This document shows, one piece after another, positions 2,297 to 31,260 of a stretch of DNA of 35,789 bases. The stretch comes from Acidobacteriota bacterium (GTDB lineage Bacteria > Acidobacteriota > Terriglobia > Bryobacterales > Bryobacteraceae): positions 1-35,789 of the forward strand of contig JACQZT010000244.1 of NCBI GenBank assembly GCA_016213755.1, read 5' to 3'. The notes under the pieces are model-generated. The model did not search any database, was not told the DNA's origin, and saw nothing but the letters and a program-made list of their open reading frames with translations. Within the stretch, counting starts at the first letter, position 1. Every line of letters starts with the position of its first letter. Both the position numbers and the translations under genes were made by a program.

Positions 2297-3726
2297 TAAG
2301 CGTCTCCTTCCTTTTCCGAGCGCTCAGGCATCGGGAGCCGGACCGAAATGCGCGTTCCCTCTCTGGGGGCCGACTCCAGACTGAGCTGCCCGCCCAGCGC
2401 CGCCGCCCGCTCCCTCATCCCCAGGATCCCCAGCCCGGTTTTGCCTTCCGGCGCGCCGTGAAAGCCGGTCGCAAACCCTTTTCCGTTGTCGGCCACGGTC
2501 AACTGGAGCTCACCATCCATCTGTTGGACCCGGATTTCGACGTGCGTGGCTCCGGAGTGCCGCGCGCAGTTGGTGAGCGCCTCCTGAACCACCCGGTAGA
2601 TGCAGGTGCGGAGGGCATCGGGCAAGTCTTCGACTATCCCCTCACTCGAATAAGTGCAGCGGATGCCGGAACGCCGGCCGAAATCCTCGATGAGGGATTG
2701 CAGCGCCGGCTCCAGGCCCAGATCGTCGAGCAAGGAAGGCCGCAGCAGGACCGAGATGTTGCGCACGGTCCGGACCGTCTTTTCCGCCAGCAGGCGGGCC
2801 TCTTCCAGGCTCGAATCCGCGGCTTGAGGGCGGGTTCCGAGGTCGGCGCGGGCGCGCGAGATTTCGATGCGCAGCGCGGTCAGGGTCTGCCCGATTTCGT
2901 CGTGCAGCTCGCGGGACAGCCGGGTCCGTTCCTCCTCCTGAATCTCGAGCAGGCGGGCGGACAACTGCTGCAAGTCGCGGCGGGCTTGCGCGACTTCGGC
3001 GTACCGGAGCGCGCTCTCCAGTTCCGAACGCGAGGCATAGCGAAGACTAAGCCGGGCCACCAGCAGAGACAAGATCACGCACAGCCCGACCACGCTGAAC
3101 AGTCGGAAAAGCGCGGTGCGCCGGCTGGCATCGGATTCGGCTTCGCCCATTCGCATGGCCTGTTCGCTGGCATCGTTCAGCTCCCGCAACAGGGCGCCGG
3201 CGGCGGTTCGGCGCGGGACGATCTCGGACTGGACGAACTCGTAGGCGTCGGCGGAGCTGGGCGGTCCCGGCTGGTCGATGGCGGCCTCGATCGCGGACCA
3301 GAATTCCTGCACCCGCGCCCGAAGCTCCGACAGTTGCGTGTCCGTGACTCTGGCGCCTTCGATCTCCCTCAGCAAGGCCTGGGATTCGCCTCGCATCTGC
3401 CCATATTGGGTGCGGAAAGTCGCGCGCCGGTCGGCCGCACGACTGAGGAAGTAGTCGCGCGCGGAGATCGATCCCAGGTAGATCAATCGCCGGATGCGCC
3501 AGGTGATATCGCCGCTCCGGATGTATTTGCGGTAAATGTCGTTGGCCTGGCGGGAAGCGCGCTCCTGAATTCGCCAGGCCTCGAAGGCGGAGAACAGCAG
3601 CAGGAGCATCATGGCCCCGAATCCAAGGCGCAGCACGGCCAGCCGCCCGGGCCGAAAGCGACTCGCGCGGGGATCGGTGGTTTCGGGATGCTGGCCCGCG
3701 CCGTTCATTGCCAGATAGCCTAACAA
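2296..3726 (-). CDS. Membrane sensor histidine kinase (HisKA_3 type)
   Basis: A 476-residue NarX/DesK-type sensor kinase. A transmembrane helix at about 29-50 is followed by a largely helical extracytoplasmic domain (about 52-205, resembling CHASE3/four-helix-bundle sensors) and a second helix at about 207-226. The HisKA_3 dimerisation domain carries the phospho-accepting H275 in SRELHDEIGQ. The HATPase_c domain has an N-box (QEALTN, 381-386), G1 (DNGKGF, 413-418) and G2 (GLGILGMRER, 431-440). It phosphorylates the response regulator encoded directly downstream. The TTG start at 3726 has an AAGGGAG ribosome site 4-5 nt upstream, whereas the ATG at 3708 has none. The signal is unknown. Confidence 0.92.
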   Translation of the reverse strand: MLGYLAMNGAGQHPETTDPRASRFRPGRLAVLRLGFGAMMLLLLFSAFEAWRIQERASRQANDIYRKYIRSGDITWRIRRLIYLGSISARDYFLSRAADRRATFRTQYGQMRGESQALLREIEGARVTDTQLSELRARVQEFWSAIEAAIDQPGPPSSADAYEFVQSEIVPRRTAAGALLRELNDASEQAMRMGEAESDASRRTALFRLFSVVGLCVILSLLVARLSLRYASRSELESALRYAEVAQARRDLQQLSARLLEIQEEERTRLSRELHDEIGQTLTALRIEISRARADLGTRPQAADSSLEEARLLAEKTVRTVRNISVLLRPSLLDDLGLEPALQSLIEDFGRRSGIRCTYSSEGIVEDLPDALRTCIYRVVQEALTNCARHSGATHVEIRVQQMDGELQLTVADNGKGFATGFHGAPEGKTGLGILGMRERAAALGGQLSLESAPREGTRISVRLPMPERSEKEGDA

Positions 3727-7268: not shown

Positions 7269-7298
7269 ATTCTAAGCAACCGGGGGCAGTACACTCAA
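7269..7298 (-). promoter_or_regulatory. Probable cydAB promoter, -35 inside a palindromic repeat half
   Basis: Reading leftward, TTGAGT (7298-7293) and TAGAAT (7274-7269) are 18 bp apart. The predicted start near 7262 leaves a leader of about 17 nt that contains the cydA ribosome site. The -35 hexamer belongs to the repeat half at 7278-7301. Confidence 0.55.
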
Positions 7299-7301
7299 TA
7301 C
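7278..7301. repeat. Left half of an interrupted palindromic repeat
   Basis: These 24 nt differ by one base from the outer part of the arm of the intact palindrome at 28581-28668 (aaccgggg, then cagtacactcaatac). The match stops abruptly at 7301. The partner arm, in opposite orientation, lies 2.1 kb away at 9379-9411. The intervening DNA carries recombinase and transposase remnants. Confidence 0.8.
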
Positions 7302-9368: not shown

Positions 9369-9378
9369 TCACCAATTT

Positions 9379-9411
9379 CGAAATAAGTGTTTGAGTGTAC
9401 TGTCCCCAGTT
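9379..9411. repeat. Right half of an interrupted palindromic repeat
   Basis: Aligned with the right arm of the palindrome at 28631-28668, these 33 nt differ by two substitutions and one missing base. The arm abuts the argJ stop codon, so the original palindrome sat directly at the 3' end of argJ and just upstream of cydA. Confidence 0.8.
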
Positions 9412-10588
9412 AGGTGCGGTAGCTGGCGTTGATGTCGATGTAGCCCTTGGTGAGGTCGCAGGTCCAGAACCGGGCTTCGCCGCGGCCGGGGCCTTGGATG
9501 AGGAAGCGGATGCGGCAGGCGGACGCCTTGAGTTTCTGCGCCAGCGCGGCCTCGTCGAATCTGGCGGCCAGGCCGTTGCGGCAGACGGGGATGCCCTGCA
9601 AGGAGATGTCCACCTTGGCGGGGTCGAAGGGCACGCCGGCGTTGCCGGCGGCGGAGAGGATGCGGCCCCAGTTGGGGTCCGAGCCGGCGATGGCGGTCTT
9701 CACCAGCGGCGAGTTGGCGATGACGCGGGCGACGCGCGCCGCGTCGTCCTCGGTCCTGGCGCCGGAGACGTGGATCGTGATCTGGTGGCTGGCGCCTTCG
9801 CCGTCGCGGGCGATCTGCTCGACGAGGTCCTGCATGACCCAGGTGAGGGCCTCCTGGAACATGGCCCGGTCGTCGGCGTTGGGTTTGAGACCGGAGGCGC
9901 CGTTGGCCAGCAGCACGACCGTGTCGTTGGTGGAGGTGTCGCCGTCCACCGAGAGGCGGTTGTAGGTGCGGTTGGTGGCGGCGGCCAGCAGGGGCTGAAG
10001 ATCGCGCGGCGAGATGGCGGCGTCGGTCATCAGGTAGCCGAGGGTGGTGGCCATGTTGGGGTGGATCATGCCGGAGCCCTTGGTCAGGCCGGCCAGGTGC
10101 ACGGTTCCGCCGCCGATGGAGAGATCGGCGAAGGCGATCTTGGGTTTGAGGTCGGTGGTGAGGATGGCGTTGGCGACGCCGGTGAACGCCTCCGGGGAGA
10201 GCTTCGCCACCAGGGCGGGCAACGCCGCCGTAATGAGCTTGGGGTTTAACTCCACGCCTATGACTCCGGTGGAGGAGGGCAGAACCTGCTCGACGGGAAC
10301 CTTGAGCAGGCGCGCCGCGGCGCGGCTGGTGGCCAGCGCCACGCGGTCGCCGGTGCGGGTGGCGCAATTGGCGTTGCCGGCGTTGACCAGGATGGCGCGA
10401 GCGCGGCCGCGCGAGGCGCGCAGGTGGGCCCGCGACAGACGGACCGGGGCGGCCTGCACCAGGTTCCTGGTGAAGACGGCGGCCGCCGAGGCGGTGGTGT
10501 CGGAGACGATCAGGGCCAGATCGTCCTTTTCGGCTTTTCGAATTCCAGCGTACGTCGAAGCGTAACGATATCCGAGCGGCAGGTTCAC
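9410..10588 (-). CDS. argJ: Bifunctional ornithine acetyltransferase / N-acetylglutamate synthase
   Basis: A 392-residue ArgJ. It transfers acetyl from N-acetylornithine to glutamate (and may use acetyl-CoA), recycling acetyl in cytoplasmic arginine synthesis. The precursor self-cleaves before a Thr nucleophile, seen here as HPNMA-TTLGYLMTDA with T181. Other family segments are TGVIGVELNPK, DLSIGGGTVHLAGLTKGSGMIHPN and SDPNWGRILSAAGNAGV. Its GTG start overlaps the fmt stop by 4 nt (GTGA), so it is coupled to fmt. It is the last gene of the aroC-def-fmt-argJ run. Its stop codon touches the right half of the interrupted palindrome. Confidence 0.96.
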   Translation of the reverse strand: MNLPLGYRYASTYAGIRKAEKDDLALIVSDTTASAAAVFTRNLVQAAPVRLSRAHLRASRGRARAILVNAGNANCATRTGDRVALATSRAAARLLKVPVEQVLPSSTGVIGVELNPKLITAALPALVAKLSPEAFTGVANAILTTDLKPKIAFADLSIGGGTVHLAGLTKGSGMIHPNMATTLGYLMTDAAISPRDLQPLLAAATNRTYNRLSVDGDTSTNDTVVLLANGASGLKPNADDRAMFQEALTWVMQDLVEQIARDGEGASHQITIHVSGARTEDDAARVARVIANSPLVKTAIAGSDPNWGRILSAAGNAGVPFDPAKVDISLQGIPVCRNGLAARFDEAALAQKLKASACRIRFLIQGPGRGEARFWTCDLTKGYIDINASYRT

Positions 10589-27498: not shown

Positions 27499-28566
27499 TT
27501 AGGGTTTGGGGGGCTGCTCGTTGATCTTCTCGTCGGGCAGCGGCTCGGGGGTTTCGAACTTGATGGTGGCCTCGGCGCCGAACTTGCGGTACATGCGGAA
27601 CTCGACCTCGTTCTTACTCAAGAACTTGCTGGCTCGCATGCGCACCACGGCGCGCAGGGGCAGAATAAACTGCTGGCCGCCGATCTCGGTGAAATCGTAG
27701 TCCAGCGTGGTGGCCGCCTGCTGCACCGGGAAGGTCGCCGGGATGTTCTCGGCCTCCAGCGTGATACGCATGACCGCCAGCGTATCCCGGTCCACGTAGA
27801 CCAGGCCCCGGTAGCCGGGAACGATGTCCAGGCGGCGCTCGTAGCTGACGTGCCACTTGGAGCGCGACTGCGATACCCGATACTCGAACACGTGCATGCG
27901 CCGGCCCCGCAGCGTGGCCCAGCGTTCCCAGCGAAAGTCGGCCTGCGTTTCGGGCTCGAATATTTCCTTCAGCATGCTGCCGAATTCGCCGCTGGAGGTC
28001 GATCCGCCCAGCCGATCGAAGGAGATGTCGGTGGGCCGGTTGTTCACCAGGACGACCTTGTAGTCTTCCTTCTGCTCGAAGTAGGTCAGGCGCACGGTGA
28101 GGACGTCGTCGCGCTGCCAGAACTCGAGTCCCGAAGGATCGTAGAAGCGCCGCGTCACCTGCGTGCAGACGAAGTCCGGCAGGCGCTTCACATAGCTCAG
28201 GGAGTATTGCCGGACCTCCTCGATAATCCGTTTCTGCTCCGCGGAACTCGGACCGGGAATCGGCGGCGGGGGTGGTTTGGGGGCCACGACGGGAGGCGGC
28301 GCCAGGTCTTTCGAGGCATCGCGCAGCGCCCGCAGGGCCTCCAGAGTGCGCGGGCCCGCGCCCAAGCCTTGCAGGTCCTCGATGGTGCGGTCGTCCAGCC
28401 GGTCTGTCAGCACGACCTTCCTCAGGTAGTCGCCCACCTGCTTGTCCGGATGGCGCAGTTCGATGGACGACTTCACAAAGGTGAGCAGTTGCGCCACGGT
28501 CATCCTCATCTGCGCCGGCAAAGCCAGGGCAGCCAGCAAGCCGGCAATGACCATTCGTCGTCCCAT
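27499..28566 (-). CDS. Secreted protein of unknown function
   Basis: A 355-residue protein with a short signal peptide (MVIAGLLAALALPAQM at residues 5-20; the Met at residue 5 is an alternative start). A small helical domain (about 22-90) contains a helix-hairpin-like segment (LTDRLDDRTIEDLQGLGAG). Next comes a Pro-rich linker (PPPVVAPKPPPPPIPGP), then a mostly beta domain (about 120-345; FVCTQVTRRFYD, YRGLVYVDRDTLAVMRI). The C-terminal domain looks like an outer-membrane-lipoprotein-sorting/LolA-like fold seen in many acidobacterial proteins, but I cannot assign a function. It is coupled to the CpaE-like gene downstream, and its 5' end is 15 nt from the palindromic repeat. Confidence 0.7.
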   Translation of the reverse strand: MGRRMVIAGLLAALALPAQMRMTVAQLLTFVKSSIELRHPDKQVGDYLRKVVLTDRLDDRTIEDLQGLGAGPRTLEALRALRDASKDLAPPPVVAPKPPPPPIPGPSSAEQKRIIEEVRQYSLSYVKRLPDFVCTQVTRRFYDPSGLEFWQRDDVLTVRLTYFEQKEDYKVVLVNNRPTDISFDRLGGSTSSGEFGSMLKEIFEPETQADFRWERWATLRGRRMHVFEYRVSQSRSKWHVSYERRLDIVPGYRGLVYVDRDTLAVMRITLEAENIPATFPVQQAATTLDYDFTEIGGQQFILPLRAVVRMRASKFLSKNEVEFRMYRKFGAEATIKFETPEPLPDEKINEQPPKP

Positions 28567-28580
28567 ACCTCAATTCTCTC

Positions 28581-28668
28581 AAAACCGGGGATAGTACACT
28601 CAATACACCTGTTTCGCCGAAAACACACCGGGCGAAATAGGTGTATTGAGTGTACTGTCCCCGGTTTT
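28581..28668. repeat. Intact palindromic repeat, 38-nt arms
   Basis: Arms 28581-28618 and 28631-28668 are complementary throughout, with a 12-nt loop. The only two non-Watson-Crick positions (28592/28657 and 28611/28638) are G-T pairs, so the plus-strand RNA would pair fully. The core is accggggatagtacactcaa / ttgagtgtactgtccccggt. A second copy of the same palindrome is split between 7278-7301 and 9379-9411. Confidence 0.9.
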
Positions 28669-29625
28669 CCCGGTTTTGAGGGCGGGGAGGCCGCCTAGGG
28701 GGCGGGCCAGGCGGACGGCGCGGAGGATGGCTTGGGCGAGGGCTTCGGCCGCCGCGACGCCCAGGGCGTTCAGGTCGGCCCAGACATCTCCGGCCGAGAG
28801 CGCGAATACCACGTCGCCGTCCAGCATGGTGAAGACCGGCGAGATGGCGCGCGCCATGCCGGCCGAGGCCATCTGTGCCAGCCGGGTCGCCTGCGGCTTG
28901 CTCAGCCGCGCATTGGTGGCGATCACCGCCAGCGTGGTGTTCTCCCCCGGATTCGGAATGCCGCCCGGCGCACCGCGCTTCAACTCGCGCGCGGTATCGG
29001 CGAACTCCAACCCGGTCTCCGAGCGGCGCGCACCGGCCACGATCCGACCGGTTTCGGGATCGACGACATCGCCGAAGGCGTTCACCGCCGCCAGCGCCGA
29101 AACCAGCGCGGAGCCTTCCAGCGCCACAGTGAACGAGCCGAGGCCGGACTTCATGGCGCGCCGCATGCCGAACAGCTTGCCCACCGAGGCGCCCGTCCCG
29201 GCGCCAACGCAACCCTCGGCGACGGCGCCGGAAGTGGCTGCCGCCGCCGCGGCTTCGCCCATCTCGCGGGTGGGGCGCACGTTCGGCTTGCCGAGCGCGA
29301 GGTCGTACAGGATGGCGCCCGCCACCAGCGGCACCCTCGCCGCCGGGGTTTCGAACCCCACGCCCTTGTGCTCGAGATAGCGGCGCACGCCGGACGCCGC
29401 CTCGAGGCCAAAGGCGCTGCCGCCGGCCAGCACCACGGCATGCAGGCGTTCGGTCAGGTGCAGCGGGCTCAGCAAGCCGGGTTCTTCGAGGCCCGTCGCG
29501 GCGCCGCGAACGTCGATGCCGGCCGCGGCGCCGGCCTCGCACCGGATCGCCGTGCAGCCGGTGAGCGCCTCGTAGTCCGAAGCGTGGCCCACGCGGATGC
29601 CGGGAATGTCGGTCAGTCCTTTCAT
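28600..29625 (-). CDS. P1-family peptidase (DmpA/BapA-like)
   Basis: About 341 residues, starting MKGLTDIPGIRVGHASD, the classic N-terminus of DmpA-type L-aminopeptidase/D-esterases. Other family segments: VVLAGGSAFGLEAASGVRRY; CVGAGTGASVGKLFGM; ENTTLAVIATNARLSKPQ, where the autocleavage site and Thr/Ser nucleophile are expected; and GDVVFALSAGD. These enzymes self-cleave and hydrolyse N-terminal residues of small peptides. The ORF continues upstream to 29694, but the family start is 29625. The natural end appears to be near LGGLPAL; the last roughly 25 residues (GDSTLNTP... to AKQVY) and the stop codon are encoded by the palindromic repeat at 28581-28668. Confidence 0.87.
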   Translation of the reverse strand: MKGLTDIPGIRVGHASDYEALTGCTAIRCEAGAAAGIDVRGAATGLEEPGLLSPLHLTERLHAVVLAGGSAFGLEAASGVRRYLEHKGVGFETPAARVPLVAGAILYDLALGKPNVRPTREMGEAAAAAATSGAVAEGCVGAGTGASVGKLFGMRRAMKSGLGSFTVALEGSALVSALAAVNAFGDVVDPETGRIVAGARRSETGLEFADTARELKRGAPGGIPNPGENTTLAVIATNARLSKPQATRLAQMASAGMARAISPVFTMLDGDVVFALSAGDVWADLNALGVAAAEALAQAILRAVRLARPLGGLPALKTGKTGDSTLNTPISPGVFSAKQVY

Positions 29626-29668
29626 GCCGCCGCTTGTATGGTAGCATCGTCGGAGAGGAATCCACGGT

Positions 29669-30427
29669 TTGCTCGACTTCCTGAAAGGGCCCATCCTTGC
29701 ATTCCAGGACTTTCTCGCTCTGGCGGGCCGGGCGTTCCTGAATATCTTCCGGCGGCCGCACTACTTCGACGACATCTCCATCCAGATGGACACCATCGGA
29801 GTGGGCAGCTTGCCGATCGTGATCCTGACCGGTTTCTTCAGCGGAGCGGTGATGGCGCTGCAGATGTCGCGCGCGCTGTCGACCTACGGCGCCACGGGCC
29901 AGATCGGCACCATCACGGCCATTACGCTGGTGCGCGAACTGGGGCCCGTGCTGACGGCCCTGCTGGTGGCGGGACGCAACGCCTCCGGCATCGCCAGCGA
30001 ACTCGGATCGATGAAAGTGACCGAGCAGATCGACGCCATGCGTGCGCTGGGCACCGACCCGGTGCAGAAGCTGGTCACCCCGCGCCTGATCGCCACCGCC
30101 GTGGTGCTGCCGCTGCTGACCATCATCGCCGACTTCGTCGGCATCTTCGGCGGTTATTGCGTGGCCTGCCCGCTGCTCAATCTGCTCACGCCCAACCAGT
30201 ACTGGACCACTTCCTATCGCGCCATCGAGTACAACGATCTCTCGCAGGGCCTGCTGAAGCCGTTCCTGTTCGCCATCGTCATCGCCCTGGTGGGATGCTA
30301 TTACGGCATGCGCACCACGGGCGGCACGCAGGGCGTGGGCCGCGCCACCACGCAGGCCGTGGTGGTGGCGTCGATCTGGGTGTTCGTTCTGAACTTCGTG
30401 ACCACCAGGGTGTTTGTGAACCTGTAA
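29669..30427 (+). CDS. mlaE: MlaE-type ABC transporter permease
   Basis: A 252-residue permease with five to six helices. MlaE/YrbE signatures: LPIVILTGFFSGAVMALQ, VRELGPVLTALLVAGR, GSMKVTEQIDAMRALGTDP and the late TTGGTQGVGRATTQAVV. It forms the membrane core of an MCE phospholipid transporter that moves lipids between inner and outer membranes. The start is TTG at 29669, with GAGAGGA upstream. It is divergent from the P1 peptidase across 43 nt. Its stop shares one base with the mlaF start (TAATG). Confidence 0.93.
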   Translation: MLDFLKGPILAFQDFLALAGRAFLNIFRRPHYFDDISIQMDTIGVGSLPIVILTGFFSGAVMALQMSRALSTYGATGQIGTITAITLVRELGPVLTALLVAGRNASGIASELGSMKVTEQIDAMRALGTDPVQKLVTPRLIATAVVLPLLTIIADFVGIFGGYCVACPLLNLLTPNQYWTTSYRAIEYNDLSQGLLKPFLFAIVIALVGCYYGMRTTGGTQGVGRATTQAVVVASIWVFVLNFVTTRVFVNL

Positions 30428-31260
30428 TGACCGGCGAAGCTCACGACTGCGTTCTCCGATTCGAAAACGTGAGCGTCCGCTTCGAGGACGTCACGGCTCT
30501 GGATCGCGTGTCGTTCGCCATGCGCGCGGGCGAGACGCGCGTTATCCTGGGCGCGGCGGGCAGCGGCAAGACCATCCTGCTGAAGGCGGCGCTGGGCCTG
30601 GTGCGGGCCGGCGAAGGCCGGGTTCTGGTCTTCGGCGAGGACATCACGCGCCGCCGGGAACGGGAGTTGTACGAACTGCGCAGCCGCATTGGCATGTTGT
30701 TCCAGGAGGGCGGGCTGTTCGACTCGCTGACCGTCGAGGAGAACGTCGCCTATCCGCTGGTCAATCAGAAGACGGAGCGCAAGCTGAGTCCGGCGCAGGT
30801 GCGCGAGAAGGTCGAGGAGTCGCTGCGCTTCGTGGAGCTCGGGCACACGCTCGAGAAATTCCCCAGCCAGCTTTCCGGCGGCATAAGGCGCCGCGTCGGC
30901 ATCGCGCGGGCGGCGGTCACCGAGCCGCCGCTGGTGCTGTACGATTCCCCCACCGCGGGCCTGGATCCGATCACCGCCAACAACATCATCGCCCTGATCG
31001 TCAAAGAGCGCGACGTGAAGAACACCACCACCGCACTGGTGACGCACCGCTATCAGGACGGCGCCTTGCTGGCCGACTTCCGCTACAATTCAGACAGCGG
31101 CCAGTTGGAGCCGCTCGCCCGCAACGGCCGCGCCGCCGGGCGCGAGACGACGTTTATGGTCATGCGCGAGGGCCGCCTGGTATTTGAAGGTGCACAGGAC
31201 GAGCTGGAATCCTCCCGCGATCCCTACATCGCCAAGTTTGCGAGGCAGTCGAGCGAATAA
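30427..31260 (+). CDS. mlaF: MlaF-type ABC transporter ATPase
   Basis: A 277-residue ATPase driving the MCE lipid transporter. Walker A GAAGSGKT (42-49), Q-loop Q93, signature LSGGIRRRVGIARA (149-162) and H-loop H207 (VTHR) are intact. In Walker B (LVLYDSPTAGLDP) the residue after D173 is S174, where most ABC ATPases have the catalytic Glu. A roughly 30-residue segment after the H-loop (ADFRYNSDSGQLEPLARNG) precedes a terminal strand-helix (FMVMREGRLVFEG). The long open frame extending far upstream over the peptidase and mlaE is not coding; the ATG at 30427 is coupled to mlaE. Confidence 0.93.
   Translation: MTGEAHDCVLRFENVSVRFEDVTALDRVSFAMRAGETRVILGAAGSGKTILLKAALGLVRAGEGRVLVFGEDITRRRERELYELRSRIGMLFQEGGLFDSLTVEENVAYPLVNQKTERKLSPAQVREKVEESLRFVELGHTLEKFPSQLSGGIRRRVGIARAAVTEPPLVLYDSPTAGLDPITANNIIALIVKERDVKNTTTALVTHRYQDGALLADFRYNSDSGQLEPLARNGRAAGRETTFMVMREGRLVFEGAQDELESSRDPYIAKFARQSSE

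Follow-up and report, generated by a model that had tools for sequence, protein, structure and literature searches.

Introduction

Several repeat systems resemble the element reported here; what follows on them is taken from the available parts of the papers cited. RAYTs were defined in PMC2817692 and REPINs in PMC3116915. The GGGGWSAS repeats of TIRtrons, a group of TIRYTs from acidobacteria and dimers of the TIR were described in PMC3733652. The same paper placed REPs no more than 20 bp from 3' ends, with GTAG termini that provide TAG stops, and approximately 10% of intragenic REPs at ORF ends. Most TIRYTs belong to TnpA-Y1 subclass 2.1, with a C-terminal HTH (PMC6006769). The addition of protein sequence by a miniature element is known from Coxiella burnetii Dugway, in which QMITE2 adds a 33-residue tail to EnhC (PMC5896051).

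Here we describe a palindrome that is fused to the end of a peptidase gene in a stretch of 35,789 nucleotides (the window) from what is most likely a Bryobacterales acidobacterium. It is a REPIN-like dimer of the GGGGWSAS "TIR" class; the family is new, although the kind is already known, and its motif was not described in the available text, figures excepted, of the literature on TIRYTs or on RAYTs and palindromes in Acidobacteria. With a probability of roughly 0.87, the palindrome is a non-autonomous mobile element, a REPIN or TIR dimer, that was moved in trans by a REP-associated tyrosine (HUH, Y1) transposase and became fused to the peptidase end.

Results

The palindrome encodes the C-terminal tail of a peptidase

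The relevant features of the window are as follows.

28581-28668, no strand assigned: REPIN-like palindrome in which two inverted terminal repeats form a dimer, with arms at 28581-28618 and 28631-28668 and the loop at 28619-28630.
28669-28677, no strand assigned: second copy of the 9-nt A-rich foot, adjoining the palindrome on its outside (CCCGGTTTT on the plus strand, AAAACCGGG on the minus strand); the tail starts here.
28600-29694, minus strand: S58 (P1-type) peptidase ORF, the 3' end of which runs into the palindrome (Pfam PF03576, 9.5e-42).
28603-28677, minus strand: 25 codons from the foot, first arm and loop, with the TGA stop at 28600-28602 inside the second arm.
27499-28566, minus strand: the following gene, without a Pfam match; 15 nt separate its start codon from the palindrome.
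7279-7301, plus strand: single arm of the same family, from the sequence search.
9376-9410, minus strand: single arm of the same family, lying against the argJ TAA stop, from the sequence search.
9410-10588, minus strand: argJ, with a complete C-terminus (profile to 377/377); the stop is TAA in this genome and TGA, at the identical codon, in the sister species.

The palindrome that an earlier note on this DNA had pointed out is real: 38-bp arms pair around a 12-nt loop, and the fold is stable on both strands. RNA folding gave -70.7 kcal/mol for the plus strand (z -13.9) and -62.1 kcal/mol for the minus strand (z -10.1), and in neither case was any of 200 shuffles equally stable. The arm sequence of the family is (G)GGACAGTACACTCAA, and doubled feet resembling the 9-nt foot of the window were found in other copies. 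The same note had counted two copies in the window, each at the 3' end of a leftward gene and 15-35 nt before the next gene. Three places in fact carry an arm: the full palindrome and two single arms. The arm at 9376-9410 does lie at the 3' end of the leftward argJ gene, but 144 nt separate it from the next called gene, and the arm at 7279-7301 does not share the claimed placement, as it is located approximately 30 nt from the start of a cytochrome bd gene and 334 nt from the nearest called 3' gene end. A further inverted repeat at 37-100 (GCCGCGAATGAACGCGAATG ... ATTCGCGTTCATTCGCG) is unrelated to the palindrome family.

The peptidase reads ...LGGLPAL, then KTGKTGDSTLNTPISPGVFSAKQVY, and stops at the TGA in the second arm, 25 residues beyond PAL, in agreement with the proposal that it is translated through the first arm and loop with about 25 extra residues. 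The onset of the tail is exactly the duplicated foot, outside the palindrome. When 30 peptidase loci, including our own, were examined, all 29 homologues stopped 0-10 residues after a common PGL/PAL; 27 of these were scored by script, L158 among them in the wrong frame, and L158, L160 and L161 were read directly. A tail-bearing homologue that lacked the palindrome was sought, and there was none among the 29. The closest relative, G001, a sister species of the same genus, has a peptidase that ends GVPGLAG-stop; compared to it, the tail replaces the final two codons and the stop. The break in gene order between the two genomes falls at the same point as the tail start, and an empty site could not be read in G001 at this junction, where its gene order differs; of the loci fetched near other copies, none matched G001 neighbours. 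That a palindrome has recoded a protein end, as had been suggested, is borne out by the absence of the tail from the homologues, by the size of the repeat family (about 50 places) and by the arms that flank RAYT genes in relatives, described below.

The palindrome belongs to a family of inverted doublets

A search for the repeat gave 81 matches in the draft genome to which the window belongs (G000, 503 contigs), at approximately 50 places. Several copies lie at contig ends (for example C7:5-40, C218:1-70, C317:9272-9312 and C345:22443-22510); the assembly thus breaks at the repeat, which makes the copy number a minimum. Arms within one mismatch of GGGGACAGTACACTCAA numbered 78, of which 37 were forward and 41 reverse, compared to 0 and 0 for a control pattern. 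Arms at this threshold were found in only 4 of 61 genomes searched, own genome included, with a single one in G001; in the family-wide search, the exact 16-base arm was present in 16 of 237 genomes.

The copies take three forms: near-perfect palindromes of 62-66 bp, a longer version that contains AATACACC and whose loop varies, to which the window copy belongs, and single arms. The 27 paired elements and the single arms thus present the inverted, hairpin-forming doublet with many copies per genome by which REPINs are recognised. Arms differed by 4.4 mismatches within an element versus 5.4 between elements, which is only slightly better within, and hence no covariation is claimed. Rfam returned no family above the gathering threshold, the only matches being sub-threshold microRNA hairpins. 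The GTAG tetranucleotide was not present at the element ends, the feet of which read (G)AAAACC. On contigs C221 and C50 (L074, L103) the flank outside the left arm, left of position 139, is near-identical; this is perhaps a larger repeated unit. Outer feet were also seen in tandem, for example as GGAAACCC units or AAACCC runs (L391-L398 and L367 in G117; L369 and L402 in G245; L383-L390 in G247), as if the foot had been copied repeatedly.

Copies are located at stop codons

Gene calls around the copies come from a codon-usage program written for this analysis, which is not a standard one and is especially rough for gene starts. After two duplicated ends were dropped, 75 arm ends were kept, and gene ends were accepted from 150 nt before to 70 nt inside an element. 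A gene 3' end was faced by 38 of the 75 arm ends: 32 are found no more than 15 nt past the stop, six are read through and none is farther away. When gene ends were counted on either side of a copy, 3' ends at distances of 109-334 nt occurred only beside single arms. Among the gaps between tandem genes, 18 of 25 were usable once those with read-through or overlap had been left out; in these, eight elements were 3 nt or less from the stop versus 2.0 expected, and uniform placement was rejected (p about 1e-5). The preferred niche at gene 3' ends that had been suspected from the window alone is therefore sharper than first described.

The stop itself was also biased. TAA was used at 28 of the 32 stops adjoining the family, compared to 39 of 150 other genes. 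Another family of repeats in the genome, GGGGACAGACGGAACG, flanks an intact RAYT gene (L032, G000:C312 about 30300-31180) and is also often located at stop codons; taken alone, five of its ten ends lie within 15 nt of a stop and five are read through. With both families pooled, TAA was found at 30 of 38 stops (Fisher 5e-9) and CTAA at 20 of 38 versus 10 of 150 (8e-10). The argJ gene ends with TGA in G001 and, at the same codon, with TAA and the foot in our genome. An oxidoreductase gene (L094) has TAA in both genomes, followed in G001 by a different palindrome. Profile comparison of ten proteins, five of which end at a foot, suggested that the latter are complete: LepA C-terminus 107/107, FtsX 120/120, HATPase 108/111 and GFO/IDH/MocA 252/254, with no match for the fifth (L096).

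Placement next to stops was also observed in G080 (four of five called ends at 6 or 7 nt) and in G172 (four of four at 4 to 12 nt). It was looser in G247 (9-67 nt) and was not seen in G117, G245 and G003, in which gene ends are 21-110 nt away where called, and often none was called; the stop-codon habit is thus not universal in the clade.

Two observations were made beside these copies. In G001 (L443, about 3331-3396) a different perfect palindrome (AAAATGCGTCAGCCTGGTATGGCCCC...) lies directly after the stop of a gene that in G000 is trailed by the element of the window; its arm recurs at L444, about 1490. In G000 the final 24 coding nucleotides before repeat-adjacent stops are enriched in C and depleted in G (C 0.425, G 0.198, compared to 0.308 and 0.312 in other genes), with nearly normal composition in the 276 nt upstream of them; this might bear on Rho or on single-strand targets.

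Position behind the stop invites the possibility that the copies are kept as a two-way transcription terminator or as an mRNA-protecting 3' end, with mobility only their origin. The very stable hairpin on both strands would suit such a role, as would the location of 11 of 40 elements between convergent genes, the different G001 palindrome behind the same stop and the C-rich coding ends. Set against these points, four of the 40 elements lie between divergent genes, and a consensus scan found no site resembling an intrinsic terminator, the T run being only 4 long and paired with the A run. Strand bias is also absent. A transition in a Watson-Crick pair leaves G-T on one of the two strands and A-C on the opposite one. 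The two imperfections of the window palindrome are G-T on the plus strand, which the earlier note took as consistent with selection for RNA folding of that strand; the genes on either side are both encoded on the minus strand, however, where the imperfections are A-C, and across the family the sense strand carried five G-U versus seven A-C mismatches. A further 15 mismatches were unassignable, and elements that had over four other mismatches were left out. Selection on a plus-strand RNA was rejected on this basis, with no indication that either folded strand is favoured. A terminator or 3'-end function, which is compatible with a mobile origin, is possible but we consider it doubtful.

Alternatively, the transposase might pick stop codons, or a short motif within them, as its target. 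The sharp peak at the stop and the excess of TAA and CTAA are what this would produce, and the TnpAREP of E. coli cleaves at CT (available part of PMC8266576). CT preceded the foot, however, at none of the 33 readable ends that do not face a gene (four more were unreadable), and CT was rejected as a general target dinucleotide; furthermore, the argJ stop is TGA in the sister species, so that TAA may come from the foot. We regard targeting of this kind as unlikely.

Other genes read into a copy

Seven genes read into an element: the window peptidase, a GH31 enzyme (L066), a sulfatase (L071), an RNase II/R-like protein (L072), a TPR protein (L073), L426 and L097, the last of which is the seventh case and ends more than 70 nt inside its element. 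In five of the seven (the peptidase, the GH31 enzyme, the sulfatase, the TPR protein and one unknown) the tail starts with a sequence like (T)GDSTLNTP, because these genes enter the copy in the frame AAA ACC GGG GAC AGT. This common tail might be taken for a functional peptide tag spread by the element, but the likeness follows from shared DNA read in one frame, the two remaining genes use another frame that gives NRGQYTQ, and after the first arm the tails diverge along with the loops; a tag is very improbable.

In relatives the arms flank a clade of RAYT genes

The same arm, inverted, is present on both sides of a RAYT (Y1) gene in G106, G117, G113 (L218), G245 and G247. A RAYT gene is flanked by the arm variant TATACTCAA in G080, and in G160 by the arm on the sole readable side. 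In a maximum-likelihood tree of 41 RAYT rows, all seven of these transposases fell within one clade of nine (support 96/95); the other two members have related but different repeats (GAGGTGACAGTCACCTC at L214, and GGGGACAGTAACCACAATTCCC at L378, a short gene). One further RAYT, L200, owes its arm label to a weak, two-mismatch match and lies outside the clade; even with L200 counted, the arm label required four changes on the tree, and none of 500 shuffles was as low. In G117, an arm of one dimer holds sequence that adjoins the transposase gene (TTTCTGAGAGCG), as would be expected if the dimer had arisen from the transposase unit by deletion. In G001, five RAYT genes (L460-L464) each have an inverted repeat of their own (GGGGACGGAGTACTC, AGGGACAGAGGCACCCT, GGGGACAGTAACAAATAACCCC, GGGGACAGGCTACGAAATCCC and GGGGACAGACGGGACGTTCCC).

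The arms contain the GGGGWSAS motif that marks TIRtrons and TIRYTs, here as GGGGACAG. PF01797 was above its cut-off in all six arm-flanked transposases compared, and the NCBIfam model REP_Tyr_transpos scored 62-75 bits in four of four, below its cut-off of 80. The C-terminal HTH of subclass 2.1 gave no Pfam match in six of six transposases at E up to 5, a search that a divergent domain could escape, and membership in subclass 2.1 is therefore not claimed.

Y1 matches in our own genome comprise three and one further fragment, and none qualified as the mover of the family. L032 has its own different repeat, GGGGACAGACGGAACG, with 34 matches at up to two mismatches compared to 2 for a control; C29, a truncated gene, clusters with the GCTAC clade; C160 has other flanks; and C324 is a fragment, also with other flanks. 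A RAYT of the TACACTC clade was not found in this assembly, but in a draft of 503 contigs with several copies at contig ends this is not proof of loss.

Inverted repeats in many copies, with some similar hairpin MITEs known, could also point to a miniature element of a DDE-type transposon whose transposase is unknown; since the arms flank RAYT genes in relatives, motif and transposase clade go together, and inspection of the flanks by eye revealed no target duplication, this is the least probable of the explanations considered.

Discussion

The reading that we prefer, a dimer mobilised in trans by a RAYT, ties a palindrome family of a probable Bryobacterales acidobacterium to a defined transposase clade. 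Several results speak against it: the assembly yielded no RAYT of the matching clade, an empty site could not be read at the peptidase junction, neither a target duplication nor another direct mark of transposition was seen, and G117, G245 and G003 do not show the placement at stops. Judging from the chemistry of the class (available part of PMC8266576), a RAYT acting in trans would insert or copy the dimer through single-stranded DNA. At the window, a copy would have joined the peptidase 3' end about two codons before the stop position of the sister species, after which the ORF would have run via the A-rich foot, the first arm and the loop to the TGA inside TATTGAGTG of the second arm. The resulting tail is probably neutral. 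At other copies, the T of the host gene and the AA of the foot would together form TAA and leave the protein unchanged, and a copy that joined one or two codons earlier in another frame would give rise to a protein tail. The element usually abuts the stop without a change in the protein because the host T followed by the foot AA reads TAA.

This sharp fit to the stop codon, with TAA rebuilt by the foot, is unusually sharp here and is the part worth following. It may reflect target choice, survivorship or selection for a hairpin behind the stop. Tentatively, the A-rich foot may be a stop-codon-safe end, selected for its coding sense, that rebuilds TAA behind the T of any stop; settling, even where a compact genome is most crowded, would then be nearly free of cost, and misses by one or two codons would account for the recurrent tails. 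The family shows how a mobile repeat can occupy the very position of the stop codon and leave protein ends intact or alter them, and annotators of such genomes should anticipate C-terminal tails of the TGDSTLNTP kind that are encoded by the element.

Neither stop-codon contact nor recurrent tails were described for TIR dimers in the available parts of PMC3733652 and PMC6006769. Compared on the same basis with the systems introduced above, the family is most like TIRtrons and the TIR repeats linked to TIRYTs, in that inverted GGGGWSAS repeats flank a Y1 transposase gene and dimers occur too; it differs from TIRYT subclass 2.1 (PMC6006769) in that Pfam detected no C-terminal HTH in the transposases. 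With REPINs (PMC3116915) it shares the inverted doublet, the long hairpin, the variable spacer, single-arm remnants and a RAYT class of its own. Unlike REPINs, its arms are not GTAG REPs that each form a small hairpin, its longer palindrome is almost perfectly paired, and the RAYT is missing from its own assembly. As with the GTAG REPs that give a TAG stop (PMC3733652), the element ends provide stop codons near gene 3' ends, but here the foot is AAAACC, the stop is TAA and there is no GTAG. Finally, like QMITE2 (PMC5896051), this palindromic miniature element adds a C-terminal tail; the element family is another one, and compared to the one tail described there, seven genes are read through here.
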